Source: Paenibacillus sp. FSL H8-0548 (lineage in GTDB: Bacteria; Bacillota; Bacilli; Paenibacillales; Paenibacillaceae). Taken from it: DNA of 64,000 nucleotides. The translations under genes and the position numbers were made by a program. The stretch covers positions 996,001-1,060,000 of the forward strand of contig NZ_CP152049.1 in assembly GCF_038630985.1 (NCBI RefSeq), read 5' to 3'. Positions 30,111 to 59,611 of the stretch are shown in pieces. Under the pieces are notes generated by a model. It had not been told where the DNA came from, did not search any database, and saw nothing but the letters and a program-made list of their open reading frames with translations. Within the stretch, counting starts at the first letter, position 1. Every line of letters begins with the position of its first letter.

Positions 30111-30141
30111 CCTCAATACGCATAAGAAAGGATGTCCATAC

Positions 30142-43021: not shown

Positions 43022-43837
43022 ATGGAGAGCCCATACGATGAGCTGGCGGCGTATTTTTTGCAGGTCCCGATTGACGTATTTGGCGTTTATCAGACCCTGA
43101 TTCGTACAGGCGTGCACCAAGGACATAAACACCAGCCCACGACTAAATGCGCGATGGTTATCGCCCTGAAGGGTGAGGCTGAATTTATTTACGATGGCAA
43201 CAAGCATGTCATGTATCCGGGGAAAGCTTTGCTTGGCGGGGGGAACCGGCATCTGGAGCTTATGGTTCATTCGGCTGAATTCGAGTATTTTCTCGTTCAC
43301 TATTTGCCGGTCACCATTGATCGGGATGAGCAGGCATTGGTAGAAAAGGTCAGCGAGCTTCATATCGAGCTGGATGCGGCATTGCTGCAATTAATGGAAC
43401 AGCTGCGAAGGCTTTCCACAGTTTTAGGCAACCTCGAGCTGTTGGAGAAAAAAACGCTATTTTACCGATTGCTTAATAAAGCACTTCTACACGAGCGTTA
43501 TCAGCAAAATAGTGACAGCCAGCCGATGATGGACCAGACGATCGGATATATCCGGCATCATTATATGGAGCCAATTACGCTCGATAGCTTGGCGGAGCAG
43601 CATGGGATGAAAGCCAAGTACTTCTCTCATTTGTTTCGTAAATATACGGGCATCGGTCCGATCAACTATTTGATTCAATTCCGAATGAATCACGCTTATG
43701 AGCTGCTGGTGGCTGCGGATTTTTCTGTGCGTGAGATTGCTAGAAGCGTTGGTTACTCTGATGCTTATTATTTCAGCCGATTATTCAAAAAGCACTACGG
43801 CATGTCGCCGACAGCCGTGAAGCAGCTTGAGAAGTAG
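43022..43837 (+). CDS. AraC-family regulator of the siderophore gene
   Basis: A 271-residue regulator from ATG 43022, preceded by GAGAGGGG 8 nt away; longer starts at 42998 and 42914 are possible. The N-terminal half is a cupin-like sensor (HKHQPTTKCAMVIALKGEAEF...PGKALLGGGNRH). The C-terminal 100 residues hold two helix-turn-helix motifs (YMEPITLDSLAEQHGMKAKYF and FSVREIARSVGYSDAYYFSRLFKKHYGMSP), the AraC/XylS signature. The neighbouring iron-siderophore binding protein, with a Fur box between them, suggests it activates that gene when the ferric siderophore is sensed, as B. subtilis Btr does for feu genes. A decayed copy lies at 56425-56600. Confidence 0.88.
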   Translation: MESPYDELAAYFLQVPIDVFGVYQTLIRTGVHQGHKHQPTTKCAMVIALKGEAEFIYDGNKHVMYPGKALLGGGNRHLELMVHSAEFEYFLVHYLPVTIDRDEQALVEKVSELHIELDAALLQLMEQLRRLSTVLGNLELLEKKTLFYRLLNKALLHERYQQNSDSQPMMDQTIGYIRHHYMEPITLDSLAEQHGMKAKYFSHLFRKYTGIGPINYLIQFRMNHAYELLVAADFSVREIARSVGYSDAYYFSRLFKKHYGMSPTAVKQLEK

Positions 43838-43906
43838 AAATAATCCATCCTGTCATCGGGAAATTATCTATTTGCGCTGAGGAAGAGCAATGGTATCATT
43901 AAACTC

Positions 43907-43925
43907 GATAATGATAATCGTTATC
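43907..43925 (+). promoter_or_regulatory. Fur box upstream of the siderophore-binding protein
   Basis: GATAATGATAATCGTTATC matches the 19-bp Fur consensus GATAATGATAATCATTATC at 18 of 19 positions. It lies 34 bp before the start at 43959, so iron-loaded Fur should repress the gene. Confidence 0.92.
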
Positions 43926-43958
43926 AACTAAACGATAGATATCGAGGGGAAGAATCAA

Positions 43959-44996
43959 ATGAAGACACGTAAACTGCCTATGGCAGCCGTTAGTATGTTA
44001 TTGCTTATCGTGATGCTCGTAAGCGCCTGCTCCAATGCTGGAAATGTGAATCAAACAGGCACGAATGCACCAACTGCAAGCAATGGGTCGGAAAAGGGCA
44101 GCGGCAACAACGCTAATGCTAATACGACGGATAGCCAAGCTTTTCCAAGAACGGTAATAAGCGCAGACGGCAAAGAAATAACGATTGCGGAGCAGCCGAA
44201 AAAAATTGCCCTTGTTCATTGGGGATTAACGCAGGATTTATTAGGCTTTGATCTATCATCTATTGCAGTAACGCTGCCGTTCTCGGCTAAGCAATCGTTT
44301 CTTGATTCGGAGGTATACAAGCCGTACGTCGAGAAATTTAGTGAGATCGTGGTCGTTGGCGAGAATACGGCGGTGAATCTGGAAGCTCTGCTGCAATACG
44401 AGCCAGATCTTATTTTGGCAGGCAGCATAACCAACAAGGAGATCGCCGAGCAATTGTCGCAGATCGCTCCTATGGTTATGATCGATGAGGAGAAAACGAA
44501 CGTCTGGACGGATTGGCAAGGTGTCATTACGCAGTTTGGGGAGATTCTCGGGCAAGAAGAGCTTGCGGAACAGACGATTGATACATTTACTGCCAAAGTA
44601 GAACAAGCGAAGCAGCAATTAAACAGCGTTGAGGGAACGGTGGCTTATGTCCAGGTTCGGGAAAAGACGATATGGCTGCAAGGTATGAGCTATACCGGAG
44701 AATATTATGAGCCGCTCGGCTTGACTGCGCCAGAGGAGGCTAAGGGTGATGGCATGGAGCTGTCACTTGAGGGGCTGAGCGCCATCGATCCGGACCATTT
44801 GTTCCTTGGTTATTTCAATTATAATGATTCTTCGCTCCCTGCTCTCTCCGACGAATGGGAACAAAGCGAAGTGTGGAAAAAGCTGAAGGCCGTGCAGAAA
44901 AACCAGGTATACGGAATCAACGGCGAGCTTGCGTATGGTTACGGGCCTATCAGTAGAAGCAGTGGTGTGGAAGCGATTGTGGATGCATTGAAATAA
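43959..44996 (+). CDS. Iron-siderophore ABC transporter binding lipoprotein (FeuA/FecB type)
   Basis: A 345-residue lipoprotein: the signal ends in MLVSAC (Cys24), followed by an Asn/Gly/Thr-rich linker (NANANTTDSQ). The body has the cobalamin/iron binding fold of PF01497: RTVISADGKEITIAEQPKKIALVHWGLTQDLL, then ALLQYEPDLILAGS (the conserved LxPDLI motif) and ELSLEGLSAIDPDHLFLGY. It should deliver a ferric siderophore to an importer at the membrane; no permease is encoded next to it. GAGGGGAAG lies 9-15 nt before the ATG. A Fur box precedes it and an AraC regulator lies upstream. Confidence 0.92.
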   Translation: MKTRKLPMAAVSMLLLIVMLVSACSNAGNVNQTGTNAPTASNGSEKGSGNNANANTTDSQAFPRTVISADGKEITIAEQPKKIALVHWGLTQDLLGFDLSSIAVTLPFSAKQSFLDSEVYKPYVEKFSEIVVVGENTAVNLEALLQYEPDLILAGSITNKEIAEQLSQIAPMVMIDEEKTNVWTDWQGVITQFGEILGQEELAEQTIDTFTAKVEQAKQQLNSVEGTVAYVQVREKTIWLQGMSYTGEYYEPLGLTAPEEAKGDGMELSLEGLSAIDPDHLFLGYFNYNDSSLPALSDEWEQSEVWKKLKAVQKNQVYGINGELAYGYGPISRSSGVEAIVDALK

Positions 44997-45073: not shown

Positions 45074-45985
45074 TTGAGAACAATAGAGCGATTATCGACA
45101 TTTATCGTGCTCGCTGAATGTGGAACCTTCACAGAAGCAGCGAAGCGATTATACTGCTCTCAGCCAACAATTAGTCATCATATCCAACAGCTAGAGGAAC
45201 AGTTCAAGGTGATCCTCTTTTATCGTACTGGAAAAAAGGTTGAGTTGACTAAGCAGGGAATTATTCTATTGGATTACGCGAAGCAAGTAAATCAACTGAT
45301 GGATATGGCATCGTACAATTTGCAAAACTCTGTCCAACAGGAAGAACAGATTTTACCTGTTTATGTGAGTAATTTCATTGCACTTTATTACTTTCCGGAG
45401 TTAATGGTTCATTTTCGCAATGAATTTCCAAAGCAGCAGATGGAGGTTTATTCATTTTGCTATGATGAGTTGAAGAGATCTCTTCTTGAGGGCAGGACCA
45501 ACTGGGCAATTATGCCGCTGTACCCTGAGGATGATTATATACATTCGGAATTTGATATATCCGTTATTATTGAAGATGATTTTAAGCTTGTGTTTCCTAG
45601 TGATCATCAGTGGGTGGATAGAAAGGTGCTGTATGCCCGCGATTTGAATGGTCAGACCATTTTGCTCCCGCAAAGCATGTATATTAGTAAGTATATTGTT
45701 GAGCAATTAGCGCAGCAGCATATAACCGTAAGGTATCTGCAGATGAGTAATTTTGAAGTAATTAAACAAGCTGTGAAATCTGGTATCGGTATTTCTATCC
45801 TGCCATATGCGGCAGTAAGAGCAGAGGTTGAAGAAGGCGGGCTTGCTGTTAAATGGGTATCCTCGTTGCAGATTAACCGTCAGAACGGCTTTGTTGTACG
45901 AAAGAATGCAAAGCTTACAGAGTATGAAATGGTGTTTAAGCGAGCGTTGGAAGGCTATTTTAATTTGCGGTTAGGCGCTCATTGA
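45074..45985 (+). CDS. LysR-family transcriptional regulator
   Basis: A 303-residue LTTR beginning at TTG 45074 (GAGGTG 10 nt upstream). The N-terminal winged helix (RTIERLSTFIVLAECGTFTEAAKRLYCSQPTISHHIQQLEE, residues 1-42) is followed by the usual linker helix and a two-lobed effector domain of about 210 residues (LPVYVSNFIALYYFPELMVHF..., GIGISILPYAAV). It resembles the CysB/CbbR-like subclass that controls metabolism or transport. It stands between the two Fur-box genes and may regulate the ABC operon downstream. The terminator overlaps its last codons. Confidence 0.9.
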   Translation: MRTIERLSTFIVLAECGTFTEAAKRLYCSQPTISHHIQQLEEQFKVILFYRTGKKVELTKQGIILLDYAKQVNQLMDMASYNLQNSVQQEEQILPVYVSNFIALYYFPELMVHFRNEFPKQQMEVYSFCYDELKRSLLEGRTNWAIMPLYPEDDYIHSEFDISVIIEDDFKLVFPSDHQWVDRKVLYARDLNGQTILLPQSMYISKYIVEQLAQQHITVRYLQMSNFEVIKQAVKSGIGISILPYAAVRAEVEEGGLAVKWVSSLQINRQNGFVVRKNAKLTEYEMVFKRALEGYFNLRLGAH

Positions 45986-46000: not shown

Positions 46001-46160
46001 GCTGTTCCATCTGTACTTGAAGAAGGCCCTCCACCAATAGCCAATGTATTCGAGGATATATAGGCTGGTATCAAATAACTAAATAGATGTATGCAAAACT
46101 TTGATAAGGGTGAGTTTTCACTTATGCAGACAAGGATTTTCAATAAGTAGGAAATTATAT

Positions 46161-46179
46161 GATATTGATAATCGTTATC
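46161..46179 (+). promoter_or_regulatory. Fur box upstream of the ABC/FtsEX operon
   Basis: GATATTGATAATCGTTATC matches the Fur consensus at 17 of 19 positions. It is 121 bp before the start at 46301, leaving room for a promoter and leader. Iron should repress the whole downstream unit. Confidence 0.85.
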
Positions 46180-46300
46180 AATAGTATTATATTATGTATA
46201 GCTTATTTGGGATTGATTTTGTTCGTGAAAATGGGGGATGTAAATCGACGTTCATTCAGGCATCTAAAATAATAAAAACAAACTATTGGAGGCTGCAAGC

Positions 46301-47959
46301 ATGTTTATCATGAAAAGCAAGAGGTTTTACTTAAGCTGTTTGTTAATTGCAACTATTTTAGTGGCAGGCTGCTCTCAAAAATCGAACACAGCAGCGAATA
46401 ATTCGGGAGATGCTGCTCCGGCTGCAACAACAAATTCAGAAGTACAGCAAATTTCGCAGTTAACGATTGCTGTTCCTACCGATGCCGGACCTCTTAATAT
46501 TTATAGTACGAGCGTAGATTTTATGACTGATCTAGTATTTGATAAGCTGTTTGGTCCTTCACCTTATGTGGATGATCCGCAGCCTTGGCTAGCTGAATCT
46601 GCGGAGCAATTGGATAGCTTTAATTGGGTTGTGAAGATTCGCAGTGGCATTGAGTGGCATGATGGAACGCCATTCACAGCGGAAGATGTGAAATTTACTT
46701 ATGAGTATTACCGCGACGGTCCGCAAAATAGACACTCGCATCACGTTAGTGATGTGCCGCAGATCGATACCATTGAATTGCTTGATGAAAATACCGTTCA
46801 ATTCACTTGTGCCTATGCATGTCCATCATTGAAAACAGTTACCTTTGCTGATTTGCCAATCCTAGCCAAGCATATTTGGGAAAAGGTAGAGAATCCGCGT
46901 AAATATACTGAATTAGCTGTTGGAACAGGCCCGTACAAATTAATCGAATATGTACCGGATCAATATTATAAGTTTGAAGCAAATGAGAACTTCTTTATGG
47001 GTAAGCCGGTGGTTGACACCTTAATTATGCCGATTATCAAGGATCAAACCGCTATGTTTAACTCGCTTCGCTCTGGAGAGATTGATGCAGCAGCGAAGAG
47101 TGTACCGCCGGAATTACTGGGTTCCTTTAGTAATTTGGCAGATTTGAAGGTAACGACTACACCGGAGCTTACAATAGCTGAGATACGGACGAATTATGAG
47201 AGATTCCCGCTCAATATTCATGAGTTCCGTAATGCTTTATCCTTGGCGATCGATCGTCAGACGATTACAGATATCGTATTGCTAGGGCATGCACGCCCAG
47301 CATTCCAGGGATACCCGCATCCCGACTCACCGTGGACTAACCCTGATCTAAGCACTCCTTATGATGCGGATCAATCCCGCAGCATTATGGACTCTCTGAA
47401 GCTTATTGACCGTGATGGAGATGGTATTCGTGAATCGGAGGATGGCAAGAAGCTTGATATTGAACTAGCTGTTTCCTCTGCAGAACCAACTTTTATCCGT
47501 ACAGCTGAGCTGTTGAAGGAGCAATTCTTAGATGTAGGCATTAATCTCAAGGTAGAGGTTATGGATGCTGGTACACTATCTGGAATATCTTCAGAAAGAA
47601 ATTTTGATTTAATTATCGGGAACATTGGAGCACATGGTGTAGCTGACCCGGATCAATTCATTATGTCTCATCGTGCTGATTATTTATGGAAGAAGGGCCT
47701 TCCTTATCCTGAGATGGATACATTGTTCGAAAGCTGGAAAGCTGAAACGACAATCGAAGGCCGCAAGCAGATCTCCTTTGATATGCAAGAGTTGTTTAAT
47801 CGTCAACCAACAAGTCTAGCACTCTTCTATCCAGAGCAGAACTGGGCCTATCGCTCAGATGAATTTGATTCATGGATTGAATCGCCTGGCTATGGCATTT
47901 TCCATAAATACTCGTTGTTAAATGAGGAAGGAAGAAAGATAGCAACGGGTAAAGCATAA
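46301..47959 (+). CDS. Family 5 solute-binding lipoprotein of a peptide/nickel-type ABC importer
   Basis: A 552-residue lipoprotein starting at ATG 46301 (TTGGAGG 9 nt upstream); Cys24 follows ILVAG. SBP_bac_5 features: WVVKIRSGIEWHDGTPFTAEDVKFTYEY near residue 110, AVGTGPYKLIEY near 205 and LSLAIDRQTITDIVLLGHARPAFQG near 310. It binds the cargo outside the cell. The Fur box upstream suggests a metal chelate or heme-like ligand rather than a simple peptide. It is the first gene of a compact operon reaching 56299. The downstream permeases and ATPases are of the matching Dpp/Opp/Nik type. The ligand cannot be read from sequence. Confidence 0.9.
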   Translation: MFIMKSKRFYLSCLLIATILVAGCSQKSNTAANNSGDAAPAATTNSEVQQISQLTIAVPTDAGPLNIYSTSVDFMTDLVFDKLFGPSPYVDDPQPWLAESAEQLDSFNWVVKIRSGIEWHDGTPFTAEDVKFTYEYYRDGPQNRHSHHVSDVPQIDTIELLDENTVQFTCAYACPSLKTVTFADLPILAKHIWEKVENPRKYTELAVGTGPYKLIEYVPDQYYKFEANENFFMGKPVVDTLIMPIIKDQTAMFNSLRSGEIDAAAKSVPPELLGSFSNLADLKVTTTPELTIAEIRTNYERFPLNIHEFRNALSLAIDRQTITDIVLLGHARPAFQGYPHPDSPWTNPDLSTPYDADQSRSIMDSLKLIDRDGDGIRESEDGKKLDIELAVSSAEPTFIRTAELLKEQFLDVGINLKVEVMDAGTLSGISSERNFDLIIGNIGAHGVADPDQFIMSHRADYLWKKGLPYPEMDTLFESWKAETTIEGRKQISFDMQELFNRQPTSLALFYPEQNWAYRSDEFDSWIESPGYGIFHKYSLLNEEGRKIATGKA

Positions 47960-47995
47960 AATGAATGCCGCTCAGAAAGAGAGAAGGACTCTTCT

Positions 47996-49027
47996 ATGAA
48001 TAAAAAAAGATGGCAAGCTTCAGAAAGAAGAGTCTTCTTTCTGAGGCTTGGCCGTAAGCTTATCCAGTATGCGTTTGTTATTGTAGTTGCGCTTACTCTT
48101 AATTTTTGTTTACCGCGACTAGCCCCAGGTGATCCTTTGTCTTTCGTTATAGGTGCAGATACGGCAAACGGGCTTACACCTGAACAGCGAGAGCAGCTGG
48201 AGAAAGATCTTGGTTTGGATGGAACCGTGCTCCAGCAATATGGGAAGTTTATGAGCGGAGTGCTCGTGTTTGATCTAGGCAGTTCAACGAAATTCGGCAA
48301 GCCGGTTACAACCGTGCTCGGTGAACGTATTCCTTGGACCGTGTTTGTCGTTTTGCCTGCATTGGTATTAAGCCCATTTATAGGAATCATTCTAGGTGCT
48401 TATGCAGCGTGGAATCGAGGAAGGAAAAGAGATGTCGGCATGCTGACGGTGATTTTGACTCTAGAGTCAATGCCCGCATTTTGGGTCGCGATGATTCTAA
48501 TTGCGGTATTTGGAGTGTCGCTTGGCTGGCTGCCTACTTTCGGGGCTGCTCCTTTGTTCAAGACGGATAATTGGTCCTATATGGTGGATGTATTGCGTCA
48601 TCTTGTACTTCCAGTGGCTACGATTACCATTGCGTCGGCAGGAACGAACTTCCTGCTGACACGTTCCTCCATGCTCGATACATTAGGGCAAGACTATATG
48701 ATGATGGCGGAGGCCAAAGGTGTACGAAAGAGTCGCATTATATACAGGCATGCACTGCGCAATGCGCTGCTGCCCGTGTATACCCATATCACGATGAGTC
48801 TGGGCATATTAGTCAGCGGAGCGGTTGTTGTAGAGACGGTATTCTCCTATCCCGGTATCGGGAGCCTATTGTTTGAGAGTGTAATTGCGCGTGATTACGC
48901 CTTAATGCAAGGTGTGTTCTTAATCATTACCATTGGCGTTATTTTTGCAAATTTACTTGCTGATTTAACCTATCCGCTCGTTGATCCCCGTGCACGTATT
49001 CGCAAACCAGTGGAGGGATCAGTATGA
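47996..49027 (+). CDS. DppB/NikB-type permease subunit
   Basis: A 343-residue membrane protein with six segments. LRLGRKLIQYAFVIVVALTLNFCLPRLAPGDP opens it as in DppB/OppB, and the cytoplasmic EAA-type loop (DYMMMAEAKGVRKSRIIYRHALRNALLPV, about residues 232-260) docks the ATPase. AGAAGGA lies 8 nt before the ATG. Its TGA overlaps the ATG of the next gene (ATGA). It forms the channel with the N-terminal half of the fused subunit. Confidence 0.92.
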   Translation: MNKKRWQASERRVFFLRLGRKLIQYAFVIVVALTLNFCLPRLAPGDPLSFVIGADTANGLTPEQREQLEKDLGLDGTVLQQYGKFMSGVLVFDLGSSTKFGKPVTTVLGERIPWTVFVVLPALVLSPFIGIILGAYAAWNRGRKRDVGMLTVILTLESMPAFWVAMILIAVFGVSLGWLPTFGAAPLFKTDNWSYMVDVLRHLVLPVATITIASAGTNFLLTRSSMLDTLGQDYMMMAEAKGVRKSRIIYRHALRNALLPVYTHITMSLGILVSGAVVVETVFSYPGIGSLLFESVIARDYALMQGVFLIITIGVIFANLLADLTYPLVDPRARIRKPVEGSV

Positions 49028-50784
49028 TCAACAGGTTATATACGAAGCTGGGTTTAGCAGGTATGTCTGGAAAAATGGGTTTAATAGGCTCAGGCATGCT
49101 GCTCTTTATGCTGTTTCTGGCGGTACTGGGACCTTTCGTGGTCGAGCATGATGCCAAGCAGAGAACAGGCTCACCGCTAACTGCTCCAGCTGCTGACCAC
49201 TGGCTCGGGACAAATGATATGGGGCAGGACATTTTAGCCGAGCTGGTAGTCGGAGCAAGAGTTTCATTATCGGTTGGGCTGATAGGCGCACTTGCTGTCA
49301 TGGCTATTGGGACAATCGTGGGGCTCGTAGCGGGTTATTGGGGCGGCTGGATCGATGGCTTATTTATGAGAATTGTCGATATTAGCATGACGCTGCCCTT
49401 CCTGCCGCTCATGATCGTCATTGGGGTATTCCTTGGACCAAGCTGGACGACGCAGATCATGGTGATCGCTTTGGTGATGTGGTCCAAGGTCGCCAGGGAG
49501 ACTCGTTCACAGATATTATCGCTTCGAACGAGGGGCCCTGTGTTAGCTGCTCGTTCCATGGGGGCGAGTAATGTCTACTTATTGCGGAAGCATATTTTCC
49601 CGGGTGTTTTTCCTTTAATGATTCCGCAATTCGTACAGACCGTAAATGCGGCAATTATGATGGAATCGTCGCTTAGCTTTCTTGGATTAGGTGATCCGCT
49701 CACGAAAAGCTGGGGGAGCATGCTGTATTACGCGAATGCCCGCAGTGCGTTTCTGACTGATGCCTGGTTATGGTGGGTATTGCCTCCAGGTATCGGTATC
49801 GTCATTACGGTGTTAGGTTTCTCCTTCATAGGCTACTGGCTGGAGGAACGTGTGAGTCCAAGATTGCGGAGTGTATATCGTGTAGCTTCAAGCGGCAGTA
49901 AAACGCCTCGTACTGGAGTATTTATTAGGGATGAGTCGCTCAGCTCAATCATTGAGGTGGATAAGCTCACAGTCGTTTATCCGAAGGATCAAGGGCTGGT
50001 AAGAGCTTTGAATAATGTTAGTTTGAAGGTTGGGAAAGGCGAGGTTGTTGGTATTGTCGGCGAGTCAGGAAGCGGGAAATCAACGATTGCGGCAGCCATC
50101 ATGCAATTATTGAAGCCTCCAGGAGAGGTTCAGCAGGGCCATGTCAGGTTGTTCGGCTGCGATATCGCTTCGCTCTCGGTTGAAGAGCTGCGGAAGCTAA
50201 GAGGCAGTAAAATCGCATTGATTCCACAGGCTGCTATGAATGCTCTTAATCCCGTAATCACGATTCGCAAGCAGCTGGCTGAAGCGATTGCTTGTCATCG
50301 CAAAATGGATAAGGTAAGCATAAATAGGCGAATTGACGAATTGCTTAAGCAGGTTGGCATGGATGCCAGATGGGGAGCTTCATATCCGCATGAATTAAGT
50401 GGAGGGATGCGCCAAAGGGTCGTCATTGCGATGGCTTTAATCAACGAACCTGAATTCGTTATCGCTGATGAGCCAACGACCGGACTTGATGTCAAGGTTC
50501 AAGTTGAGATCGTTCATTTATTGAAAAGTTTACAGAAGCAGCTTGGACTATCCATGATCTTTATTTCACACGATTTACCGGTGGTGTTGAAGCTTGCTGA
50601 CCGAATTGTCATCTTGAAGAATGGTGAGATTGTTGATGGCGGAGAAGTGGAGCAGATTGCTAATAGATCGGATCATCCCTATACCCGTCGCCTGATGGCA
50701 GCCATTCCAAGACTGAATAAAGGAAACACTCGCTTTGAAGAGGCTCCCCAGCAGATTGATGTGGTGCAGGAGGTGCTAGTATGA
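49024..50784 (+). CDS. Fused DppC-type permease and DppD-type ATPase
   Basis: A 586-residue chain. Residues 1-285 are a DppC/OppC permease with a TRSQILSLRTRGPVLAARSMGASNVYLLRKH coupling helix. After a short linker (SSGSKTPRTGVFIRDES), residues 310-580 are an ABC ATPase: Walker A GESGSGKST near 344, signature LSGGMRQR near 458, Walker B FVIADEPTTGLD near 477 and the H-loop SHDLP. Dpp-type operons usually encode these as two genes; here they are joined with no stop between. It overlaps both neighbours by ATGA, so translation is coupled. It pairs with the next ATPase to form the motor. Confidence 0.92.
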   Translation: MINRLYTKLGLAGMSGKMGLIGSGMLLFMLFLAVLGPFVVEHDAKQRTGSPLTAPAADHWLGTNDMGQDILAELVVGARVSLSVGLIGALAVMAIGTIVGLVAGYWGGWIDGLFMRIVDISMTLPFLPLMIVIGVFLGPSWTTQIMVIALVMWSKVARETRSQILSLRTRGPVLAARSMGASNVYLLRKHIFPGVFPLMIPQFVQTVNAAIMMESSLSFLGLGDPLTKSWGSMLYYANARSAFLTDAWLWWVLPPGIGIVITVLGFSFIGYWLEERVSPRLRSVYRVASSGSKTPRTGVFIRDESLSSIIEVDKLTVVYPKDQGLVRALNNVSLKVGKGEVVGIVGESGSGKSTIAAAIMQLLKPPGEVQQGHVRLFGCDIASLSVEELRKLRGSKIALIPQAAMNALNPVITIRKQLAEAIACHRKMDKVSINRRIDELLKQVGMDARWGASYPHELSGGMRQRVVIAMALINEPEFVIADEPTTGLDVKVQVEIVHLLKSLQKQLGLSMIFISHDLPVVLKLADRIVILKNGEIVDGGEVEQIANRSDHPYTRRLMAAIPRLNKGNTRFEEAPQQIDVVQEVLV

Positions 50785-51578
50785 CAGATAAACTGCTGCT
50801 TGAGGTTCGGGGCTTAAGCAAAAGCTATGGGGACTCTAGCTCTTTATCCGGACAGATCCCCGTCTTGAAGGGGATTGACTTCAAGGTTGACCATAATGAA
50901 ACGATTGGCCTTGTCGGAATTAGCGGTGCAGGGAAAAGCACGATTGGACGCATTATTGCTGGTTTGGAAAGTGCAAATCGCGGAGAAATTTTGTACGAGG
51001 GTCAAGATATACTGCGTCTTAAGGGTGCTCGCAGGAGTGCAGCGACTAGCTCGATTCAGATGATATTTCAGGATCCCTACGAGTCTTTGTCACCACGGAT
51101 GACGATTGGTGAGCTGGTAGCGGAGCCATTGGTCATTCAGAAAACGTTTAAGAGGGAAAAGGAGCAGCTACTAAGGCTCGTTAGTGAGGCTTTATCGGAA
51201 GTAAGCTTATCGCCTGAACGTTATCTTCATCGTTATCCACATGAGCTCTCAGGAGGAGAACGGCAAAGAGTGGGCTTAGCGCGGGCATTCATATGCAAAC
51301 CAAAGCTCATCATTGCTGATGAACCGACATCCATGCTGGACTCATCGCTTAGGCTGGATTTGCTGGAGCTGATGGACCAATTGCGTAAGAAACATCAGAC
51401 ATCGACTCTATTTATCACTCATGATCTTGCCTTGACCTATCATTTCTGTGACCGCCTTATTGTGCTTGACCAAGGAGTCATCGTGGAATCCGGCAGTCCA
51501 AAAGAAGTCATCGACAACCCGCAGCATCCCTTTACGCGAAGCTTAATTTCGGCTCTTATGGAGCTGAACCACCTCTAG
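50781..51578 (+). CDS. DppF/NikE-type ABC ATPase
   Basis: A 265-residue cytosolic ATPase. Walker A GISGAGKST is near residue 46, signature LSGGERQR near 155 and Walker B LIIADEPTSMLD near 176; the DppF-type SIQMIFQDPYESLSPRMT precedes the signature. It forms a heterodimer with the ATPase half of the fused subunit and energises uptake. It starts in an ATGA overlap with the previous gene. A 20-bp gap follows before the FtsE-like gene. Confidence 0.93.
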   Translation: MTDKLLLEVRGLSKSYGDSSSLSGQIPVLKGIDFKVDHNETIGLVGISGAGKSTIGRIIAGLESANRGEILYEGQDILRLKGARRSAATSSIQMIFQDPYESLSPRMTIGELVAEPLVIQKTFKREKEQLLRLVSEALSEVSLSPERYLHRYPHELSGGERQRVGLARAFICKPKLIIADEPTSMLDSSLRLDLLELMDQLRKKHQTSTLFITHDLALTYHFCDRLIVLDQGVIVESGSPKEVIDNPQHPFTRSLISALMELNHL

Positions 51579-51598
51579 TGAGAAGGGAATAAAAAAGC

Positions 51599-52255
51599 AT
51601 GATTCGTATTCAGTCACTTAACAAAAGGTACGGAGAGACTGCTGTGCTTCAGGATTTGAATATGCATTTGGCAGCAGGTGAATTCGCCTTTCTGCAGGGG
51701 AGATCGGGCTCAGGGAAGAGTACGCTGCTGAAGCTGCTTTATCGTGATATCGGAGATTTCTCTGGGCAAATTGAAATAGCAGGGCAATCCATCGAAAAGA
51801 TGCCCAAATATGAACTTAGACGGAAAATCGGCGTTATATTTCAGTCCTTCGAGCTGCTTGAACGCAAAACGGTGTTTGAGAATATCGCTTTGGCAGGCGA
51901 GGTTATCGGTATTTCTCGCAAAGCAATGACAGATGAGATTCATCGTCTGCTGCACCGGGTCGGTCTGGAGGGCAAGGAAAATACTTATCCTGAACAGCTG
52001 TCAGGAGGAGAACAGCAGCGTGTCGCCATCGTACGCGCGTTATTGAATCGTCCATCAATTATTTTAGCGGATGAGCCAACGGGCAACTTGGATGCGGAAA
52101 CTGCCTCAGACATCCTTCGCTTGCTGAAAGAGCTGCAGGTCGAGTCGCAGCTGGCTATGCTGGTCGTGACCCATTCCGATCGGCTTGTAGCCGAGTTCCC
52201 ATCCAAAGCATGGCAGATGATAGATGGAAGGTTAAGTGCTAATGAGCTTATTTAA
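51599..52255 (+). CDS. FtsE/LolD-type ABC ATPase
   Basis: A 218-residue ATPase of the FtsE/LolD/MacB family, not the peptide-importer type: GRSGSGKST near residue 34, a conserved RRKIGVIFQSFELL near 77, LSGGEQQR near 134 and ILADEPTGNLD near 154. This class partners mechanotransmission permeases such as FtsX rather than importing solutes. AGAAGGG lies about 11 nt before the ATG, and the next gene overlaps its stop by 14 nt. Canonical ftsEX of firmicutes sits elsewhere beside genes such as cwlO-like ones; here it is inside the iron operon, so I do not name it ftsE. Confidence 0.9.
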   Translation: MIRIQSLNKRYGETAVLQDLNMHLAAGEFAFLQGRSGSGKSTLLKLLYRDIGDFSGQIEIAGQSIEKMPKYELRRKIGVIFQSFELLERKTVFENIALAGEVIGISRKAMTDEIHRLLHRVGLEGKENTYPEQLSGGEQQRVAIVRALLNRPSIILADEPTGNLDAETASDILRLLKELQVESQLAMLVVTHSDRLVAEFPSKAWQMIDGRLSANELI

Positions 52256-53111
52256 ATACTATTTAAGAGATGCGCGGGAAGGGATAACACGTAATTTAGG
52301 TGCTGTCTTGGCTGCTGCGGCGCTCGTATTTATAGCTATGATCATGCTCGGCAGCATGCTGCTGCTTCGTGCGGGTGTTGCAGATGTTATGAAGTATATG
52401 GAGTCGCAAATCGGTGTGAAGGTTTATGTGGATCCTGCTGTTGATGTACAAGCTGTTGCCAAAATTATGGAGAGCAAAAGCTTTGTGAAATCGGTGGAGG
52501 TAGAGACGAGCGCGCAGTTGCTTGCAAGCTTGAACAGTTTTTTCGAAGGGAAGGAGCATTTGCTGCAAACCTTCATAGACAGCGATCTTCCCCATGCGAT
52601 TCGATTAGAATTGGCTGATTATAATCTAGTTGAGCAGACTGCAAAAGATCTGCGTCTAATACCAGGAATAGCGGAGGTTATCTATCCCCAGAAGCTTGCG
52701 ACGCAGTTCATGTATTGGTCAAACCAATTGAATCGATTTGGAATGGTTATTCTTCTATTCTTTGTGGTGATTGCTTTCTTGACTGTATTTCTCGCTGTGA
52801 GATTAGCGCTGTTTCAGAGATTCAAGGAGATTCGGGTAAAGCTGCTGCTAGGAGCTAAACCAACTCATGTCAGTGGCCAGTTCATGTTCGAGGGACTATT
52901 GATCGGTTTTATTGGCAGTACAGCAGCAGCCATTGCAGTATATATTTTGAGTAAATATGTGTTTGACGCCTTGGAGCGGCAATTCCCATTTCTATTTGAT
53001 TTTACGCCTGCGATGCTGAACGGGGTGATGGTCTGGGTGGTGCTGTCAGGATCAATCATTGCTTTGCTTGCCAGCTATTTATCGATAAGAAGGACAATCA
53101 AATATGTATAA
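52242..53111 (+). CDS. FtsX-type permease
   Basis: A 289-residue membrane protein from ATG 52242; a GTG two codons earlier is also possible. The FtsX layout is visible: N-terminal cytoplasmic tail, first membrane segment (LAAAALVFIAMIMLGSMLLL), an extracellular domain of about 120 residues (VKVYVDPAVDV...SVEVETSAQLLASL...IPGIAEVIYPQ), and then three segments (VILLFFVVIAFLTVFLAV, GLLIGFIGSTAAAIAVYIL, VMVWVVLSGSIIALLASYL). FtsX transmits ATPase motion to partner proteins outside the membrane, usually cell-wall hydrolases. The following coiled-coil protein overlaps it by 8 nt and is the likely partner. Confidence 0.9.
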   Translation: MSLFKYYLRDAREGITRNLGAVLAAAALVFIAMIMLGSMLLLRAGVADVMKYMESQIGVKVYVDPAVDVQAVAKIMESKSFVKSVEVETSAQLLASLNSFFEGKEHLLQTFIDSDLPHAIRLELADYNLVEQTAKDLRLIPGIAEVIYPQKLATQFMYWSNQLNRFGMVILLFFVVIAFLTVFLAVRLALFQRFKEIRVKLLLGAKPTHVSGQFMFEGLLIGFIGSTAAAIAVYILSKYVFDALERQFPFLFDFTPAMLNGVMVWVVLSGSIIALLASYLSIRRTIKYV

Positions 53112-54081
53112 GCGGCTAACTGCAATCTTACTGTCGGTAATTCTATTAGTTGCTGGAACGACTGTATATGCGCATCTGACCGGTGCCTTTGCTGAGTATT
53201 TAGCTTCTGTTTATGATGAGTCAACAACCGATAAGCTGAAACAGGAAATCGACTCGATTGGGATAGAGATTGAAGCACTGCTTCCACGCATCGATGAGAT
53301 GGAGGATGAATACAGACTAAAGCAAACCATCGCAGTCGATAAGCTGCTATTTTATAATGAACAGGGCTTGGATATGTGGGTGGGTATGCTGCAGCAGTCG
53401 AGCAATGTCGTTGACTTGCTCGGTAATCAGTGGTTGATGGAGCGTAATCTGGCTGCTTATTTGAATGAGCTGGAGCAGCTCCATACGGACCTCACACAGC
53501 TTGTTGTAACGAAGGATGTTTTGTCCAGCTATCAGCAGCTGCTAGACACGATTGATAGAAACCTAGCGATGAGGCAGCCTTATCTTGACAGCGTACAAGA
53601 TTATTCATTGGAGGAGAAATCTAATTTCCTGGATATCGACTGGGTCAGCGAGGTAGAGGATAAGCTGGTCGCTGCGCTTGATCAGGATAAACAGCTGGTC
53701 AATGAGAGCTGGAGAGAATGGGCGGCTCTAGTATCTAATAAATCTGCTTCTAATACAGCTGCCTATGAATGGACAGAAGAGTGGCTAAATGAGAGAAGCG
53801 TTTTGCATTATTTCTTTCGTTCCGATCATATTTATACGGTGTTTGAACAGCCAGGTGCACATGTGATTTTAATTGGGCAGCTGCTTAAGAACGATGAGAA
53901 TCATGCCGAGCTTCAATTCGAATCGGGATTTTACAATGGGTTTTTGATGCCGGATGTATTGTTTGAGGAGCTTCATGGTCTTCAGCTTCCCTATAGTGAA
54001 ATTAAGCAATTACAAGGTGCAACGGATGCCTCTTATTTGCAGCAGTCCAGCGGCAAGCTGCTTCTGTTAACAAACGCATGA
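53104..54081 (+). CDS. Exported coiled-coil protein, probable FtsX partner
   Basis: A 325-residue protein with an N-terminal membrane segment or signal (LTAILLSVILLVAGTTVYA). A helical part with coiled-coil heptads follows at about 38-180 (IDSIGIEIEALLPRIDEMEDEYRLK, LNELEQLHTDLTQLVV). The C-terminal domain of about 110 residues (FFRSDHIYTVFEQPGAHVILIG.. to LSHG-like LLLLTNA end) has no family I recognise. PcsB and CwlO, which FtsEX controls, also have an N-terminal coiled coil, but no NlpC/P60 or CHAP Cys-His motif is seen here. The start codon sits in the FtsX stop region (ATGTATAA). Confidence 0.75.
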   Translation: MYKRLTAILLSVILLVAGTTVYAHLTGAFAEYLASVYDESTTDKLKQEIDSIGIEIEALLPRIDEMEDEYRLKQTIAVDKLLFYNEQGLDMWVGMLQQSSNVVDLLGNQWLMERNLAAYLNELEQLHTDLTQLVVTKDVLSSYQQLLDTIDRNLAMRQPYLDSVQDYSLEEKSNFLDIDWVSEVEDKLVAALDQDKQLVNESWREWAALVSNKSASNTAAYEWTEEWLNERSVLHYFFRSDHIYTVFEQPGAHVILIGQLLKNDENHAELQFESGFYNGFLMPDVLFEELHGLQLPYSEIKQLQGATDASYLQQSSGKLLLLTNA

Positions 54082-54109
54082 GGCAAGGTACATTAATGAG
54101 AGGGTGTAA

Positions 54110-54736
54110 ATGATGCAAAATAAAAACATATTATTGCTAAATTCGCAAAGTGTAGGCATGGGCGAGGTTTCAGTTCAGCATAACTTTTCAGAGCTGGATA
54201 TGTATGATTTTCCGCAAGCTAATTTGGATTCCAAAATTGCGTTGATTATTCAAGGCTCCGTTGATCAGGAGCTTATGCTGAAGAATAAGGAGAAGATTCG
54301 CAAGTTTGCCGATAGCGGCAAGGTCATTGTATTTGGGGGCCATTTGTTCCTCCCTTGGCTTCCTGGCGCTTCTTTCTTTGTTCCCAAGGAGGTTCGCAGC
54401 CATAAGGATTATGATATATCGATCATAAATTCCCATCCGATCTTCGAAGGTGTCGACACCTACGATATGACCTATAACAAAGGTGTAGCCGGATTCTTCG
54501 CACGAGGACATCACCCGATTCCTGAAGGAGCTGAAGTATTGCTTACTCTGCCAGATCATGAGCCAATTGTATATATTGATCGTGTCAGCACAGACGGAAC
54601 CCTACTGGTGAGCTCAGGAAATGCACTGCTGAATTATCAAGATCCAAACCGTACAACGGGTCAAATTACGAGTCGCTTAGTCGAGTGGATTCATAATGAA
54701 TATGCTCAGCTTCAAAAAAGGAGTGTAGTACAATGA
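54110..54736 (+). CDS. Amidotransferase-like domain protein 1 (function unknown)
   Basis: A 208-residue protein without signal peptide or membrane segment. ENKEKIRKFADSGKVIVFGGHLF and the earlier ALIIQGSVD resemble the strand-turn-helix order of class I glutamine amidotransferase/ThuA-like folds, but the GxCxG nucleophile is absent. GAEVLLTLPDHEPIVYIDRVSTDGTLLVSSG also occurs in the next gene product, so the two are paralogues of low identity. Start ATG 54110 after GAGAGGG. No enzymatic residue can be assigned; a carbohydrate- or metal-binding role is a guess. Confidence 0.6.
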   Translation: MMQNKNILLLNSQSVGMGEVSVQHNFSELDMYDFPQANLDSKIALIIQGSVDQELMLKNKEKIRKFADSGKVIVFGGHLFLPWLPGASFFVPKEVRSHKDYDISIINSHPIFEGVDTYDMTYNKGVAGFFARGHHPIPEGAEVLLTLPDHEPIVYIDRVSTDGTLLVSSGNALLNYQDPNRTTGQITSRLVEWIHNEYAQLQKRSVVQ

Positions 54737-55344
54737 GGAAAATTGCAGCTCTATACTCAGGCGTATCCTATCAGCATCGCAGCTGGAATGAGCCTAAATA
54801 TAAGAAGTTTTTATCCGCTATTTTGTATGTGCCGGAACTTACGGAAAGCTCATTCGATGAGTTTGATATCATTATTGTGCCTTCACGTCTACACACCGGC
54901 CTGATGGAGCGTATTAAACCTTGGGTTCGGAAATTCGCTGACAATGGCGGTACGGTTGTATTGTTTTGGCCGCAGAGCTCGGATTCAGAGTGCGTACCTT
55001 TGCAAAACTGGGAGAACAGGCCGACAAACTTCTGGTGGTGGTTGGATAAGGATGCGAAGAGCGGGCTTGAATTACGGCTGCCGGAGCATAACCTATTTAA
55101 CTATTTGACGCTGGAGGATGCCACATGGCATTATCATGGCGTGTTCTGGCCGCCTGCTGGTGCAGAGGTGCTTGTAACAACGGAAGATAACGGAGCTATT
55201 CTATATGTAGACAAGGTCAGCTCAGCGGGAACGTGGGTCGTAACCTCACTTGATCCTGAATTCCATTATGGCTCTTATTTCATGCCAGCAACCGAGCGGT
55301 TTTTGGATGGATTCTTCCCTTGGCTGGCTGAGGGGGAGCATTAA
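54733..55344 (+). CDS. Amidotransferase-like domain protein 2 (paralogue)
   Basis: A 203-residue cytosolic protein that starts in an ATGA overlap with its paralogue. It shares IKPWVRKFADNGGTVVLFWP and PAGAEVLVTTEDNGAILYVDKVSSAGTWVVTS with the upstream gene. DIIIVPSRLHTGLMERI recalls the strand before the nucleophile elbow in ThuA-like proteins, but again no Cys nucleophile is present. Many Trp and Tyr residues (NFWWWLD, ATWHYHGVFWPP) could line a ligand-binding face. Function unknown; it is likely to act with the membrane components of the operon because of translational coupling. Confidence 0.6.
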   Translation: MRKIAALYSGVSYQHRSWNEPKYKKFLSAILYVPELTESSFDEFDIIIVPSRLHTGLMERIKPWVRKFADNGGTVVLFWPQSSDSECVPLQNWENRPTNFWWWLDKDAKSGLELRLPEHNLFNYLTLEDATWHYHGVFWPPAGAEVLVTTEDNGAILYVDKVSSAGTWVVTSLDPEFHYGSYFMPATERFLDGFFPWLAEGEH

Positions 55345-55372
55345 AAAGTTAATAATAAGTTGGTGAATAAGT

Positions 55373-56299
55373 ATGGGCTTTAAACGTCAATTGCTGCTAG
55401 CGCTAGTGCTCGTTTGTGCGTTTGTGGTATGGGCTCCGTCAGTCGCTGTGGTACATATCGTAAATGCTAATAATTTGTATGGGGACATAGAAAATGTAGC
55501 AGCCAAAGAGGATATTGTATACTTAACTGGAATTAATGTCATCGTCTATGACCATGGCTCTCCGCTGTTTAGGCCTCAAGATTACCTGACAAGAGTGGAT
55601 CTTGCTTATTGGGCGGGTACCTTCTATAAGCTGGGTGATTCGGACAAAACAGAAGCGGAGATTTCTCAGATTGCTTTAGATAATGGGCTAATTACAGATT
55701 TGCAAGGAAGAGCGACCTATGGGGATGTCAATCAAGCCTTTTTTAAGGGCATGGCGGAAATCGACCATGCGGAGGATGAGCTGACTAGGGAACAATATGC
55801 TGAATTCATGGGGAGTTATTTGACTACACCTGTCAATGGTCGAACGTTATTAGAAATAGCGGGTTATCTTTCTGGACCAACAGGAGTAGTGGAAGAGATC
55901 ATTACCCATGAGGATAAAACAACTGAGTTGATGATTGACGGACAGCAAATTGAGCTGGCCGCACATCCGCGAGTGCTCCAAGCTTCAACAGATGCATCAT
56001 TGTGGGTAGGGCTGACGATTAGCGACTCATGGATGATGGAAACCGATGGGGGCACGTGGACGCTGCAAATCCTTGATTTTTCCATTGCTTCAGCAGATGT
56101 GTCTGTAGAGCCTACTATTGATGAATTACCTGCTGAATCTCTAACTGAAATCAATGTGGATCCGCATGGGGGCGAACATCAGATGCTCCATGAAGGGGAG
56201 AAGAAGAAAGGGAGCTTGCCCGTTCTTGTTATAGCAGTGGTGCTCGTTGTGGTTATTTTTGCTTGGTTAATGTATAGGCGCCTGAGGAAAAGAATTTAA
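55373..56299 (+). CDS. Membrane-anchored protein with SLH-like ectodomain
   Basis: A 308-residue protein: N-terminal hydrophobic segment (LLLALVLVCAFVVWAPSVAVV), an ectodomain of about 240 residues, and a C-terminal membrane helix (SLPVLVIAVVLVVVIFAWLMY) with a basic RRLRKRI end. In the ectodomain, INVIVYDHGSPLFRPQDYLTRVDLAYWAG and AEDELTREQYAEFMG are spaced like SLH units (G...F.P...TR.E.A..), so it may touch the S-layer or wall polymer. The rest is beta-rich. As the last gene of the Fur-box operon it could tether the importer complex to the envelope. Weak ribosome binding site. Confidence 0.7.
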   Translation: MGFKRQLLLALVLVCAFVVWAPSVAVVHIVNANNLYGDIENVAAKEDIVYLTGINVIVYDHGSPLFRPQDYLTRVDLAYWAGTFYKLGDSDKTEAEISQIALDNGLITDLQGRATYGDVNQAFFKGMAEIDHAEDELTREQYAEFMGSYLTTPVNGRTLLEIAGYLSGPTGVVEEIITHEDKTTELMIDGQQIELAAHPRVLQASTDASLWVGLTISDSWMMETDGGTWTLQILDFSIASADVSVEPTIDELPAESLTEINVDPHGGEHQMLHEGEKKKGSLPVLVIAVVLVVVIFAWLMYRRLRKRI

Positions 56300-56352: not shown

Positions 56353-56424
56353 AGCTATTTAAGTTGAACTAGACATTCGTGTCTTGGGCGCTGCGCGAGG
56401 CTGCGCATAGAAAGAAAATGTTGA

Positions 56425-56650
56425 ATCACCTTGTTCGTCGCATTGAGCCGCTCGTCACTCTCTAGTACAATGAGAAGTAAATGCGATGCTGACGTATTTG
56501 GCGTTTATCCGACCCTGCTTCGTGTAGGTATGCACCGGACATCGATACCAGCCTGCGACCAAATGCACGATGATTATCGTCTTGAAGGGCATCGTTTCCT
56601 GATCTCTCCGACGAATGGAAACAAAGCGATATGTGCAAAAACGAACATTA
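56425..56650 (+). pseudogene. Decayed, deleted copy of the AraC-siderophore-protein locus
   Basis: Three blocks in the same order resemble parts of 42.9-44.9 kb. 56428-56487 matches 42941-43000 (region before and at the start of the AraC gene). 56490-56596 matches 43072-43180 (encoding DVFGVYQTLIRTGVH and the ALKGE sensor part). 56604-56645 matches about 44840-44885 (the SDEWEQSEVWKK end of the siderophore-binding gene). The rest is deleted. An open frame of 100 codons at 56431-56733 runs across all of them but encodes a chimaera, not a real protein. Confidence 0.7.
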
Positions 56651-57837: not shown

Positions 57838-57864
57838 AGAAGAAGCCGGAGCATATCATAATGA
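57838..57864 (+). terminator. Left half of an IS-split terminator
   Basis: AAGAAGCCGGAGCATATCAT here is the exact complement of ATGATATGCTCCGGCTTCTT at 59590-59609, so the two once formed one hairpin ending in T run TTT after the small gene. The IS lies between, and the 17-bp GGAGCATATCATAATGA is present on both sides (57848-57864 and 59577-59593). Confidence 0.75.
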
Positions 57865-57956
57865 AGTGCTCCCTGTCAAGTAGACAGTAGAAAAAAACAA
57901 AAAACGATTAGACCTATCCCTCAGTTCAAGTACAGAGAACTGGGGGATTATTTTTA

Positions 57957-58811
57957 TTAAGCAGCTCGGCGATACTCGTGGGGAGACAAGCCGTTAAGTC
58001 GCTCCGTATATCGGTAGTTGTTGTAGTATCGAATATAGTTCCTCACATCTTCAAGAACTTCATCGTAGGTATCGTATTTCTTCAAATAAAAGCTTTCTGC
58101 CTTGAATGTGCCCCAAAATCGCTCGATCGGCTGGTTATCCAGGCAGCGACTCACACGAGACATGCTTGTTGTGAAACCGTATTTCACCTTCAAGCGATTA
58201 TATTCATGCGAGGTATATTGGAAACCTCTGTCACTATGCAGAAGTGGCGTGATTCCACGTTTTCCCCTATATGCCTTCTTTATCGTGTCCATGACCAATT
58301 TGTTGTTGTTGGAGTGGCTGAGCACCCACGAAACGACGGAGTTATCGTGCACATCAATCATGGCGCTCAAATAGGACTTTCGACCGTTCCCATACTTCAG
58401 CTCGGTGACATCTGTACACCACTTTAGGTTCGGAGCAGCGGCTTGAAAGTCACGGTTCATGACGTTTTCGGCAACATGTGTTTCCGTGGCTCTCACGTAG
58501 CTTGGACGCTTCCTCCGAATCACTGCTTTTAATCCGAGAGCTCTCATAATCCCGTAGTAACGCTTTTTGTTGTAAGTCTTTTTCAGTTTACGGTTTAATT
58601 GGAGACGCATTTGGCGATAACCCAGTATCCCTTTTCGCTTGTCATAGCGAAGCTTCACTTCTTTTGCTAGTGAAAGCCGCTCAAGTTCTCGATTGGACGG
58701 CGTCCATTTTAACCATTTATAATAGGCAGATCTGGCGACGTTAGCGAGCTTGCATAACGCTAGTATCGCGTAGCCCTTTTCCGTGTGCAGTTCTTGAATC
58801 GCTTGATACAA
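57957..58811 (-). CDS. IS3-family transposase OrfB (DDE catalytic domain)
   Basis: A 284-residue integrase-core protein. The catalytic triad is complete: TDVTEL (Asp134), LHSDRGFQYT (Asp194) and IERFWG (Glu230) with 35 residues between the last two. HTH_21 precedes it (YGYRQMRLQLNRK-like GILGYRQMRLQL). In IS150-like elements OrfB is made as part of an OrfAB fusion by a -1 frameshift, and the frame here has its own start at 58811 as well. All conserved residues are present, so it may be active. Confidence 0.92.
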   Translation of the reverse strand: MYQAIQELHTEKGYAILALCKLANVARSAYYKWLKWTPSNRELERLSLAKEVKLRYDKRKGILGYRQMRLQLNRKLKKTYNKKRYYGIMRALGLKAVIRRKRPSYVRATETHVAENVMNRDFQAAAPNLKWCTDVTELKYGNGRKSYLSAMIDVHDNSVVSWVLSHSNNNKLVMDTIKKAYRGKRGITPLLHSDRGFQYTSHEYNRLKVKYGFTTSMSRVSRCLDNQPIERFWGTFKAESFYLKKYDTYDEVLEDVRNYIRYYNNYRYTERLNGLSPHEYRRAA

Positions 58812-58831
58812 GTCTACGTGTCGAACGAGGG

Positions 58832-59533: not shown

Positions 59534-59576
59534 GGTAGAAGTAGAAGTTTTGTTTTTTCTACTGTCTACTACGATG

Positions 59577-59611
59577 GGAGCATATCATAATGATATGCTC
59601 CGGCTTCTTTA
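59577..59611 (+). terminator. Right half of the IS-split terminator
   Basis: Holds the 17-bp direct repeat and ATGATATGCTCCGGCTTCTTT. On its own GAGCATATCAT/ATGATATGCTC still forms a short hairpin with little T run. Confidence 0.75.

Follow-up and report, generated by a model that had tools for sequence, protein, structure and literature searches.

A Fur-box operon joining a metal/peptide-type ABC importer to an FtsEX-type unit in Paenibacillus

Ten genes behind a Fur-type box

The window analysed here, i.e., a whole stretch of 64,000 nucleotides (nt) from the single-contig genome (7.35 Mb) of Paenibacillus sp. FSL H8-0548, carries on its + strand an operon of ten packed open reading frames (ORFs) that extends from 46301 to 56299 behind a Fur-type box. 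This operon encodes an ATP-binding cassette (ABC) importer, an FtsE-FtsX pair and four proteins, called here CC7, G8, G9 and TM10, that match no Pfam or NCBIfam family above cut-off. The ten-gene set is a real conserved system made of three separable modules: the importer; G8 and G9, often accompanied by an FmdE-like protein; and FtsE-FtsX-CC7-TM10. The ten ORFs and the identities of six of their products had been proposed in a first-pass annotation made from the sequence alone, and ORF reading and domain searches bear out both.

The first gene (46301..47959, +) encodes a lipoprotein of substrate-binding protein family 5 (SBP5; Pfam SBP_bac_5, 4e-71, 240.5 bits, in family searches run from 46304, one codon inside the likeliest start), which putatively binds a chelate. 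Its lipobox reads LVAGC and the ATG at 46301 is, from the sequence, its likeliest start; the best solved chain by E-value is 5isu_A. The protein stays under the cut-off of every specific NCBIfam family shown, including CntA, NikA and Opp4A. Both an opine-metallophore importer of the CntABCDF type (101.5 bits versus a cut-off of 800 for NF047575) and a nickel importer with NikA (123.8 bits versus 393 for TIGR02294) were therefore rejected. It is followed by a DppB-type permease (47996..49027, +), a DppC-DppD fusion of permease and ATPase (49024..50784, +) and a DppF-type ATPase (50781..51578, +), all recognized by Pfam and NCBIfam. ORFs of the fused length are found in 15 orthologous loci. The overlaps between DppB and DppCD, DppCD and DppF, and G8 and G9 are all of 4 nt.

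The FtsE-type ATPase (51599..52255, +) and the FtsX paralogue (52242..53111, +; PF02687, 1.4e-13, and the FtsX_ECD domain PF18075, 1.6e-8) overlap by 14 nt, the ATG of FtsX lying at 52242, and FtsX overlaps CC7 by 8 nt. FtsE shows, by eye, a Walker A motif (GRSGSGKST), a signature (LSGGEQQR), a Walker B motif and an H-loop. With both FtsX domains over cut-off and ATPase motifs that look intact by eye, the pair belongs to the FtsEX-type (type VII) ABC complexes in the wide sense. It falls outside canonical cell-division FtsEX, FtsX reaching 130.0 bits against NF038347 (cut-off 225) and FtsE 226.4 bits against TIGR02673 (cut-off 264.85).

Among the other products, CC7 (53104..54081, +) is a predicted exported protein without known domain, in which an invariant His (AHLTGAF...) follows a hydrophobic N-terminus. 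G8 (54110..54736, +), which has no cysteine, and G9 (54733..55344, +), which is ThuA- or glutamine amidotransferase (GATase)-like by public names only, are predicted to be cytosolic; as the first-pass annotation had supposed, they are paralogues (hhalign, 99.2%). TM10 (55373..56299, +) combines a signal peptide, a conserved His, a weakly SLH-like ectodomain and a C-terminal membrane helix.

The Fur-type box (TGATATTGATAATCGTTATCA, 46160..46180, +) contains a -35 element, TTGATA, which lies 17 bp from TATATT. Its core matches TGATAATnATTATCA at 14 of 15 positions, a score reached by none of 200 first-order Markov sequences built from the 400 bp upstream. A Zur box was rejected, as no match exceeded 11/15 whereas the Fur core gives 13-15/15. 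Such a core lies within 400 bp upstream in the window and in 11 of the 15 orthologous loci described below; the box precedes an FmdE-like gene in L012, L016 and L021 and an extra G8 in L025 (L numbers designate loci), and in L018 a 13/15 core falls just within the over-long first ORF. Over all 21 positions, the box has at least 18 matches in the 16 loci (the window and the 15), all of which keep TTGATA inside it except L018 (TTGAGA). A -10-like hexamer with 3-6 of 6 matches, counted without background control, lies 17 bp downstream of the -35 element (18 in L025). From its sequence, the box appears to occupy the classical place for Fur repression and the operon would apparently be switched on under iron scarcity. 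In some loci a second stretch upstream of the box looks conserved by eye and is perhaps a LysR site. Furthermore, a Fur core of at least 13/15, scored without shuffle control, lies near the first gene in 23 of 25 further G8/G9 clusters, which include second clusters and one Paenibacillus plasmid; none was found there in L075 and L077.

Conservation and modularity of the gene block

Scanning a species-genome collection with a CC7 alignment led to 17 loci from seven named Bacillales genera. In 15 of them, the importer, G8/G9 and FtsE-FtsX-CC7 stand in one block, the remaining two (L026 and L027) having only a partial CC7 next to TM10. SBP5, DppB, DppCD, DppF, FtsE, FtsX and G9 are present in all 15 block loci, as is CC7, which is interrupted in L025 (Cohnella faecalis). 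G8 is an ORF of its own in 13 of them and, according to a check with hidden Markov models (HMMs), is fused ahead of G9 in two Kurthia (L020 and L023). TM10 is adjacent in 12 of the 15 and short in L012. The G8-G9 pair follows CC7 in the window, L011, L013 and L014, and lies elsewhere between DppF and FtsE, while the overlap between FtsX and CC7 is of 8 nt in 12 of the 15 loci and of 14 nt in two. In best hits, the orthologues are from 28% (TM10) to 89% (G9) identical to their counterparts in the window, which makes this an old gene order. The search for the same order in other genomes, which had been suggested as a check, thus found the importer and FtsEX coupled across genera; a variable presence of the last six genes, which would have spoken against the operon as a unit, was not seen among these close orthologues.

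Wider samples give a more modular picture. A single-sequence search for G9 matched only the host itself, both among 60 relatives and among 398 genomes of the phylum. This indicates a patchy system, for which a sample at the level of the order was needed. There, G9 is found in 28 of 392 genomes and CC7 in 11. At most eight candidates per genome were scored for G9 and five for CC7, so that further copies may have been missed. Several of these genomes were taken as those of loci already described (G580 = L011, G623 = L016, G460 = L017, G627 = L015, G647 = L013, G1112 = L021), and the gene context of G000, G623, G460 and G647 was read from the window, L016, L017 and L013. Six of the 28 G9 genomes have the FtsEX unit in the cluster, i.e., the ten-gene type; in 18 others an SBP5/Dpp cluster lacks FtsEX and, in 13 cases, runs FmdE-G8-G9-SBP5-DppB-DppCD-DppF; three have a FecBCD importer instead, and one has G8/G9 alone in the stretch fetched. 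No CC7 match at E 1e-6 was found anywhere in the 22 G9 genomes without FtsEX unit. CC7 and G9 co-occur in six genomes, more than their separate frequencies would predict (hypergeometric, 2.8e-5; 2.1e-4 when the own genome is omitted). The two cluster types can stand side by side: in L011 (Paenibacillus agricola), the stretch 11001-20421 holds three G8-G9 pairs and a second cluster, FmdE-G8-G9-SBP5-DppB-DppCD, adjoining the ten-gene type.

The proposal that the FtsEX unit is coupled to the importer therefore stands as regards gene order across genera, but the unit is modular and the clusters lacking it are commoner. The unit is thus an add-on, one that characterizes a single importer clade. If it were a general envelope unit sharing the transcript by chance, this would fit both the frequency of importer clusters without it (18 of 28 genomes) and its ability to stand alone. 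Such mere co-regulation is nevertheless very unlikely, given that all 15 block loci, from different genera, keep FtsE-FtsX-CC7 with the importer and that the 16 FtsX of iron operons form one group (100/99) in the tree presented below.

In flanks of up to 10 kb, only a LysR gene (12 of 17 loci) and an FmdE-like gene (9 of 17, not adjacent in the window) recur widely, both counted by ORF clustering combined with HMMs; close congeners have some other flanking genes in common. In the window, the LysR-type regulator (45074..45985, +; Pfam LysR_substrate and HTH_1) lies directly upstream of the operon. Ahead of it, an AraC-type regulator is followed by a FecB-type (Peripla_BP_2) binding protein (42914-44996), a second gene for iron-chelate binding right upstream of the operon. 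Just downstream, 56411-56641 repeats in degraded form parts of this AraC-type gene (42919-43173, with 81-82% identity) and the end of the FecB-type gene (44832-44881, with 86% identity), so that remnants of the same neighbour genes flank the operon on both sides. An element that looks IS3-like by eye (57840-59609) lies 3' of the operon, with inverted repeats of 63 bp (86% identity) and two transposase ORFs on the minus strand (57957-58811 and 58832-59533). A foreign origin judged by composition was rejected for want of signal, the GC content of the operon being 0.459 versus 0.451 for the window. Further upstream (18738-32163 and 36958-42534), very large repetitive exported proteins, including a repeat protein of 3778 aa, and SLH-like C-termini are seen by eye.

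The FtsEX unit and its exported partners

The host also has a canonical ftsE-ftsX pair, followed by a gene for a protein with CC_PcsB and M23 domains. The operon FtsE is 42% identical to the canonical one. Each of the 14 genomes searched (11 with CC7 and three without) has one FtsX above the NF038347 cut-off (345-393 bits), while the FtsX of the units score 102-171 bits; in the genome search of the host, the values are 129.5 for the operon FtsX and 380.8 for the other. A tree of 35 FtsX separates the 14 canonical proteins from the 21 of the units (100/100). The third module is thus a paralogue of FtsEX, distinct from the pair that serves division. The independent loci of iron type are the window, L011-L025 and L163.

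CC7 occupies the gene position of the PcsB-type partner of the host, but its homology to this M23 protein was rejected (hhalign, 0.3%). The first-pass annotation had described it as an exported coiled-coil protein. The prediction of export holds; the coiled coil is doubtful, the 3.5-residue periodicity not being significant in any of four segments (p 0.056-0.25). A few orthologues do match coiled-coil models of Pfam, and public names say coiled-coil or SbsC C-terminal. Among 142 relatives examined (120 listed of 153, plus 22 more), all have a His after the [V/A/T/S]-x-[A/G] that closes the hydrophobic N-terminus, the signal-peptide sites being judged from the small-x-small pattern only. In the same way, A-H stands at the end of the signal peptide in 18 of 19 TM10 (L012, whose ORF is short, L116, L118, L120, L163 and L164 being left out). 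The two membrane segments foreseen for TM10 are visible as hydrophobic stretches (1-33 and 277-306), and the stretch before the last membrane helix has 0-7 His per 70 residues, three in the window. By contrast with these segments, its supposed SLH-like ectodomain finds weak backing: Pfam SLH (PF00395) is matched in 3 of 14 orthologues (best E 0.0017), with no match for the TM10 of the window, and hhalign relates the latter to one SLH stretch of the window with 41% probability (E 2.7e-4). A match of TM10 to HmuS (E 0.016) covers the C-terminal part only and was not used, and nothing credible was found when PDB relatives of G8, G9, CC7 and TM10 were sought by profile.

FtsEX is usually regarded as a switch for cell-wall hydrolases. 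The unit had been proposed to couple import to an opening of the wall or surface layer (S-layer): acting through CC7 and TM10, FtsEX would activate wall hydrolases or shift S-layer contacts and let a bulky iron ligand pass. The gene position of CC7 and the weak SLH likeness of TM10 would suit this gating, as would the control of peptidoglycan hydrolysis by described FtsEX complexes, according to the text available of PMC6705773. However, neither CC7 nor TM10 has a hydrolase domain, or a wall-binding domain over cut-off, in Pfam and NCBIfam, unlike the PcsB-type M23 protein that accompanies the canonical ftsE-ftsX of the host. Nothing encoded in the operon thus supports an opening of the wall, and gating would leave unexplained both the conserved His and the presence of the unit inside a copper monooxygenase operon (see below). 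Wall opening is possible but unlikely.

In CopC, PmoB and lytic polysaccharide monooxygenases, the N-terminal His is known to bind metal. For this reason metal handling is preferred to wall opening, and the conserved histidines of CC7 and TM10 suggest that these proteins may handle metal.

Away from the importer, FtsE-FtsX-CC7-TM10 stands alone in L114 and adjoins non-ribosomal peptide synthetase (NRPS) genes, recognized by their domains, in three genomes (L115, L119 and L120). One of these neighbourhoods also has members of the PALP, ornithine-cyclodeaminase and serine-acetyltransferase families. A major facilitator superfamily (MFS) transporter and a serine-acetyltransferase-like gene recur in these NRPS clusters (L115, L119-L122, L120-L124), and in L124 genes resembling SbnA and SbnB (PALP and ornithine cyclodeaminase families) are close to the NRPS cluster that has the four-gene unit. 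A fragmented genome, 70% complete, holds three copies of FtsX-CC7-TM10 on short contigs (L116-L118), with FtsE cut by the contig end in one and none seen in the other two. Searching plasmids gave no match to CC7.

The NRPS neighbours could point to export. MacB-type complexes of Gram-negative bacteria, which have the FtsX fold, export siderophores, and the unit might, in MacB-like fashion, free an apo-chelator or peptide from the membrane or wall space, so that the chelator can be used again once its iron is released. No synthesis gene was seen in the operon or among its neighbours in the window, by eye and in a partial domain search, and a copper monooxygenase would need no exporter, which makes export improbable. 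Sensing has even less in its favour. FtsX-family permeases of the BceB type sense ligands, and 12 of the 17 related loci have a LysR gene nearby; an FtsEX-like unit could detect the loaded chelate outside and transmit a signal inward that gates either the importer or the LysR regulator. Yet there is no histidine kinase among the ten genes, and work is a better match than sensing for ATPase motifs that look intact and for two exported partners; the odds of sensing are low.

A class-level sample extends these contexts. CC7 is found in 5 of its 368 genomes, own included. Two of them hold Brevibacillus-like iron loci, namely L163, in which SBP5 occupies two ORFs, and L164, which comes from the same genome as L021; another gives a weak match (32 bits), and the last contains L165. 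In L165, the unit has amoC on one side and amoC-amoA-amoB on the other, inside a copper membrane monooxygenase operon (Pfam AmoC, 1.5e-48; AMO, 2.3e-80; Monooxygenase_B, 8e-105). The stretch 7418-16074 of L165 holds two AmoC copies with identical Pfam scores, and genes for alcohol and aldehyde dehydrogenases lie upstream.

Iron-chelate handling and relation to known systems

G9 has invariant H133, D174 and H178, and nearly invariant H119 and H135, in 17 diverse members, and G8 has invariant D52 and H109 in 14. Membership of the class I GATases was rejected for both in the absence of a conserved nucleophile Cys, G9 having a single cysteine. The ThuA and DUF4350 models of Pfam each match 1 of 17 G9 members (E 0.062 and 0.092). 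A G9 profile finds 735 relatives at E 1e-3, of which 120 are listed, and tblastn finds G9 in 32 plasmid records.

In 8 of the 12 plasmid neighbourhoods examined (L029, L030, L031, L033, L034, L036, L038 and L039), G9 stands beside FecBCD-type importers annotated for iron; TonB-dependent receptors are near in L031, together with HemP, and in L039. In the others it stands beside an FbpABC-like importer (L035, from the haloarchaeon Natribaculum), an SBP5/Dpp-type importer (L032 and, by annotation, L040) or an NrtA-type one (L037). In L034 and L036, a single protein begins with a G9-like half and ends with a G8-like one, which is the weaker of the two (domain E 4e-12 and 8e-10). The L034 operon is presumably the iron ABC transporter of A. 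salmonicida plasmid pVSAL320 (14.1 of 30.8 kb are covered), described in the available text of PMC2627896 as iron-dependent and probably Fur-controlled.

The FmdE-like proteins of L029, L030, L031, L038, L039 and L040 are homologous to those of Bacillales, with E down to 2e-30 between Bacillales and Alphaproteobacteria. Against PF02663 (cut-off 22.9 bits), one of four Bacillales proteins is over cut-off (23.9 bits, the best), two are below and one has no match; in Alphaproteobacteria, L031 scores 19.9 bits and L029 gives no match. Most FmdE genes adjoin metal-ion transporters, according to the part of PMC2954224 that was available. On the plasmids of Agrobacterium vitis and Labrenzia that also carry G8/G9, the FecBCD importer is followed downstream by an FmdE-like gene and then by genes for phosphonate C-P lyase (L029, 14284-18591; L030, 12719-14260), the ligand there being perhaps a phosphonate iron chelate. 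The occurrence of G8/G9 relatives beside unrelated iron importers, in Proteobacteria and in a haloarchaeon, suggests that they process the imported chelate. Judged from this context, the simplest reading is that G8/G9 probably form a cytosolic module for handling the iron chelate after import, irrespective of the importer involved.

Taken together, the operon can be read as an iron-chelate uptake system under Fur repression in which the three modules work in series, a reading to which we give a probability of about 0.5. In the wall space, FtsE-FtsX would act as an FtsEX-type ABC complex that performs mechanical work, rather than transport, at the expense of cytosolic ATP. It would move CC7 and TM10, which would be its partners and present N-terminal histidines, provided that these are the true mature N-termini, and this movement would load, strip or hand over a metal chelate near the membrane. 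The SBP5 lipoprotein would then take the chelate, DppB-DppCD-DppF would import it, and G8/G9, elsewhere with the FmdE-like protein, would process it in the cytosol and release the iron. The sequences establish the gene content and order, the Fur box and its conservation, the ancestry of FtsX, the conserved histidines and the sharing of modules with other loci, some of them metal-linked. An iron chelate as ligand, and its processing by G8/G9, are suggested by gene context; a partnership of CC7 and TM10 with FtsX, metal binding by both proteins and an inward transfer are conjectural.

Several observations weigh against this reading. The importer and FtsEX modules are such that neither needs the other: besides the 18 G9 genomes whose SBP5/Dpp cluster lacks FtsEX, 5 of the 11 CC7 genomes have no G9 match, and the importer of L093, which has no FtsEX, is close to that of the window (851 bits for SBP5 and 819 for DppCD). 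TM10 is not adjacent in L011, L018 and L025, and the TM10 of the window has V instead of A before its His. A conserved His after a signal peptide could also serve folding or export. No Fur box of at least 13/15 was found for NRPS-linked or stand-alone units in the ten stretches scanned, nor in L165. The copper context comes from the single genome of L165, which is 79% complete, so that its contig may be mis-binned. Finally, the available text of a later RNA sequencing study of an A. salmonicida fur mutant (PMC5511505) names no pVSAL320 gene.

A broader idea, which we regard as rather doubtful, is that FtsE-FtsX-CC7-TM10 could be a general ATP-driven machine for metal delivery in the Gram-positive envelope, an FtsEX offshoot which, by mechanical work on proteins with an N-terminal His, would pass iron chelates to a Fur-controlled importer in the window and copper to a membrane monooxygenase in another genome. 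If so, it would be a new kind of system, and this unit with its ATP would play a part comparable to that of TonB in Gram-negative bacteria. An FtsEX paralogue tied to iron uptake, and elsewhere to a copper enzyme and to genes for NRPS, would mean that machines of this class have been re-used for metal handling, and would lead one to ask how energy is spent outside the membrane of Gram-positive cells to capture metal. As for G8/G9, with or without the FmdE-like protein, their presence beside three unrelated kinds of importers in bacteria and an archaeon makes them a good candidate for an undescribed release of iron from chelates. Neither the ten-gene system nor the four-gene unit nor the G8/G9 module was found described in the open PMC literature, preprints and most subscription papers being beyond the scope of this search.

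The FtsEX of division and elongation, with EnvC, PcsB, CwlO or RipC, share with the operon unit the FtsE motifs, FtsX_ECD and, in the partner position, an exported protein encoded by the next gene. In contrast, the operon unit is under the FtsE and FtsX cut-offs, falls in a separate group of the tree, has a partner without hydrolase domain, a Fur box and an extra TM10, and exists beside the canonical FtsX, not instead of it. CC7 and TM10 recall SweC and SweD, additional membrane proteins that the FtsEX complex of B. subtilis needs, but the latter act with CwlO and have cytosolic soluble parts, according to the available text of PMC6705773, whereas CC7 and TM10 are predicted outside. Like the CntABCDF and NikABCDE importers, the operon has SBP5 and a DppBCDF-type importer; unlike them, it has DppC and DppD fused, and G8/G9 and the FtsEX unit added. 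The FecBCD-type iron importers of Proteobacteria have related cytosolic proteins (G9/G8 and an FmdE-like one) and, for some, a LysR gene nearby. However, their importer class is unrelated, no FtsEX, CC7 or TM10 is annotated nearby, TonB receptors are near some of them and, in the FecBCD-type loci L034, L036, L094 and L095, the G9 half is fused ahead of the G8 half. The third cytosolic protein matches the FmdE family PF02663 weakly but repeatedly, although several members are under cut-off and its gene is not adjacent in the window. Machines of FtsEX type and SBP5 importers are known kinds; what is new is that a single Fur-box operon combines them, together with partners that have not been described.

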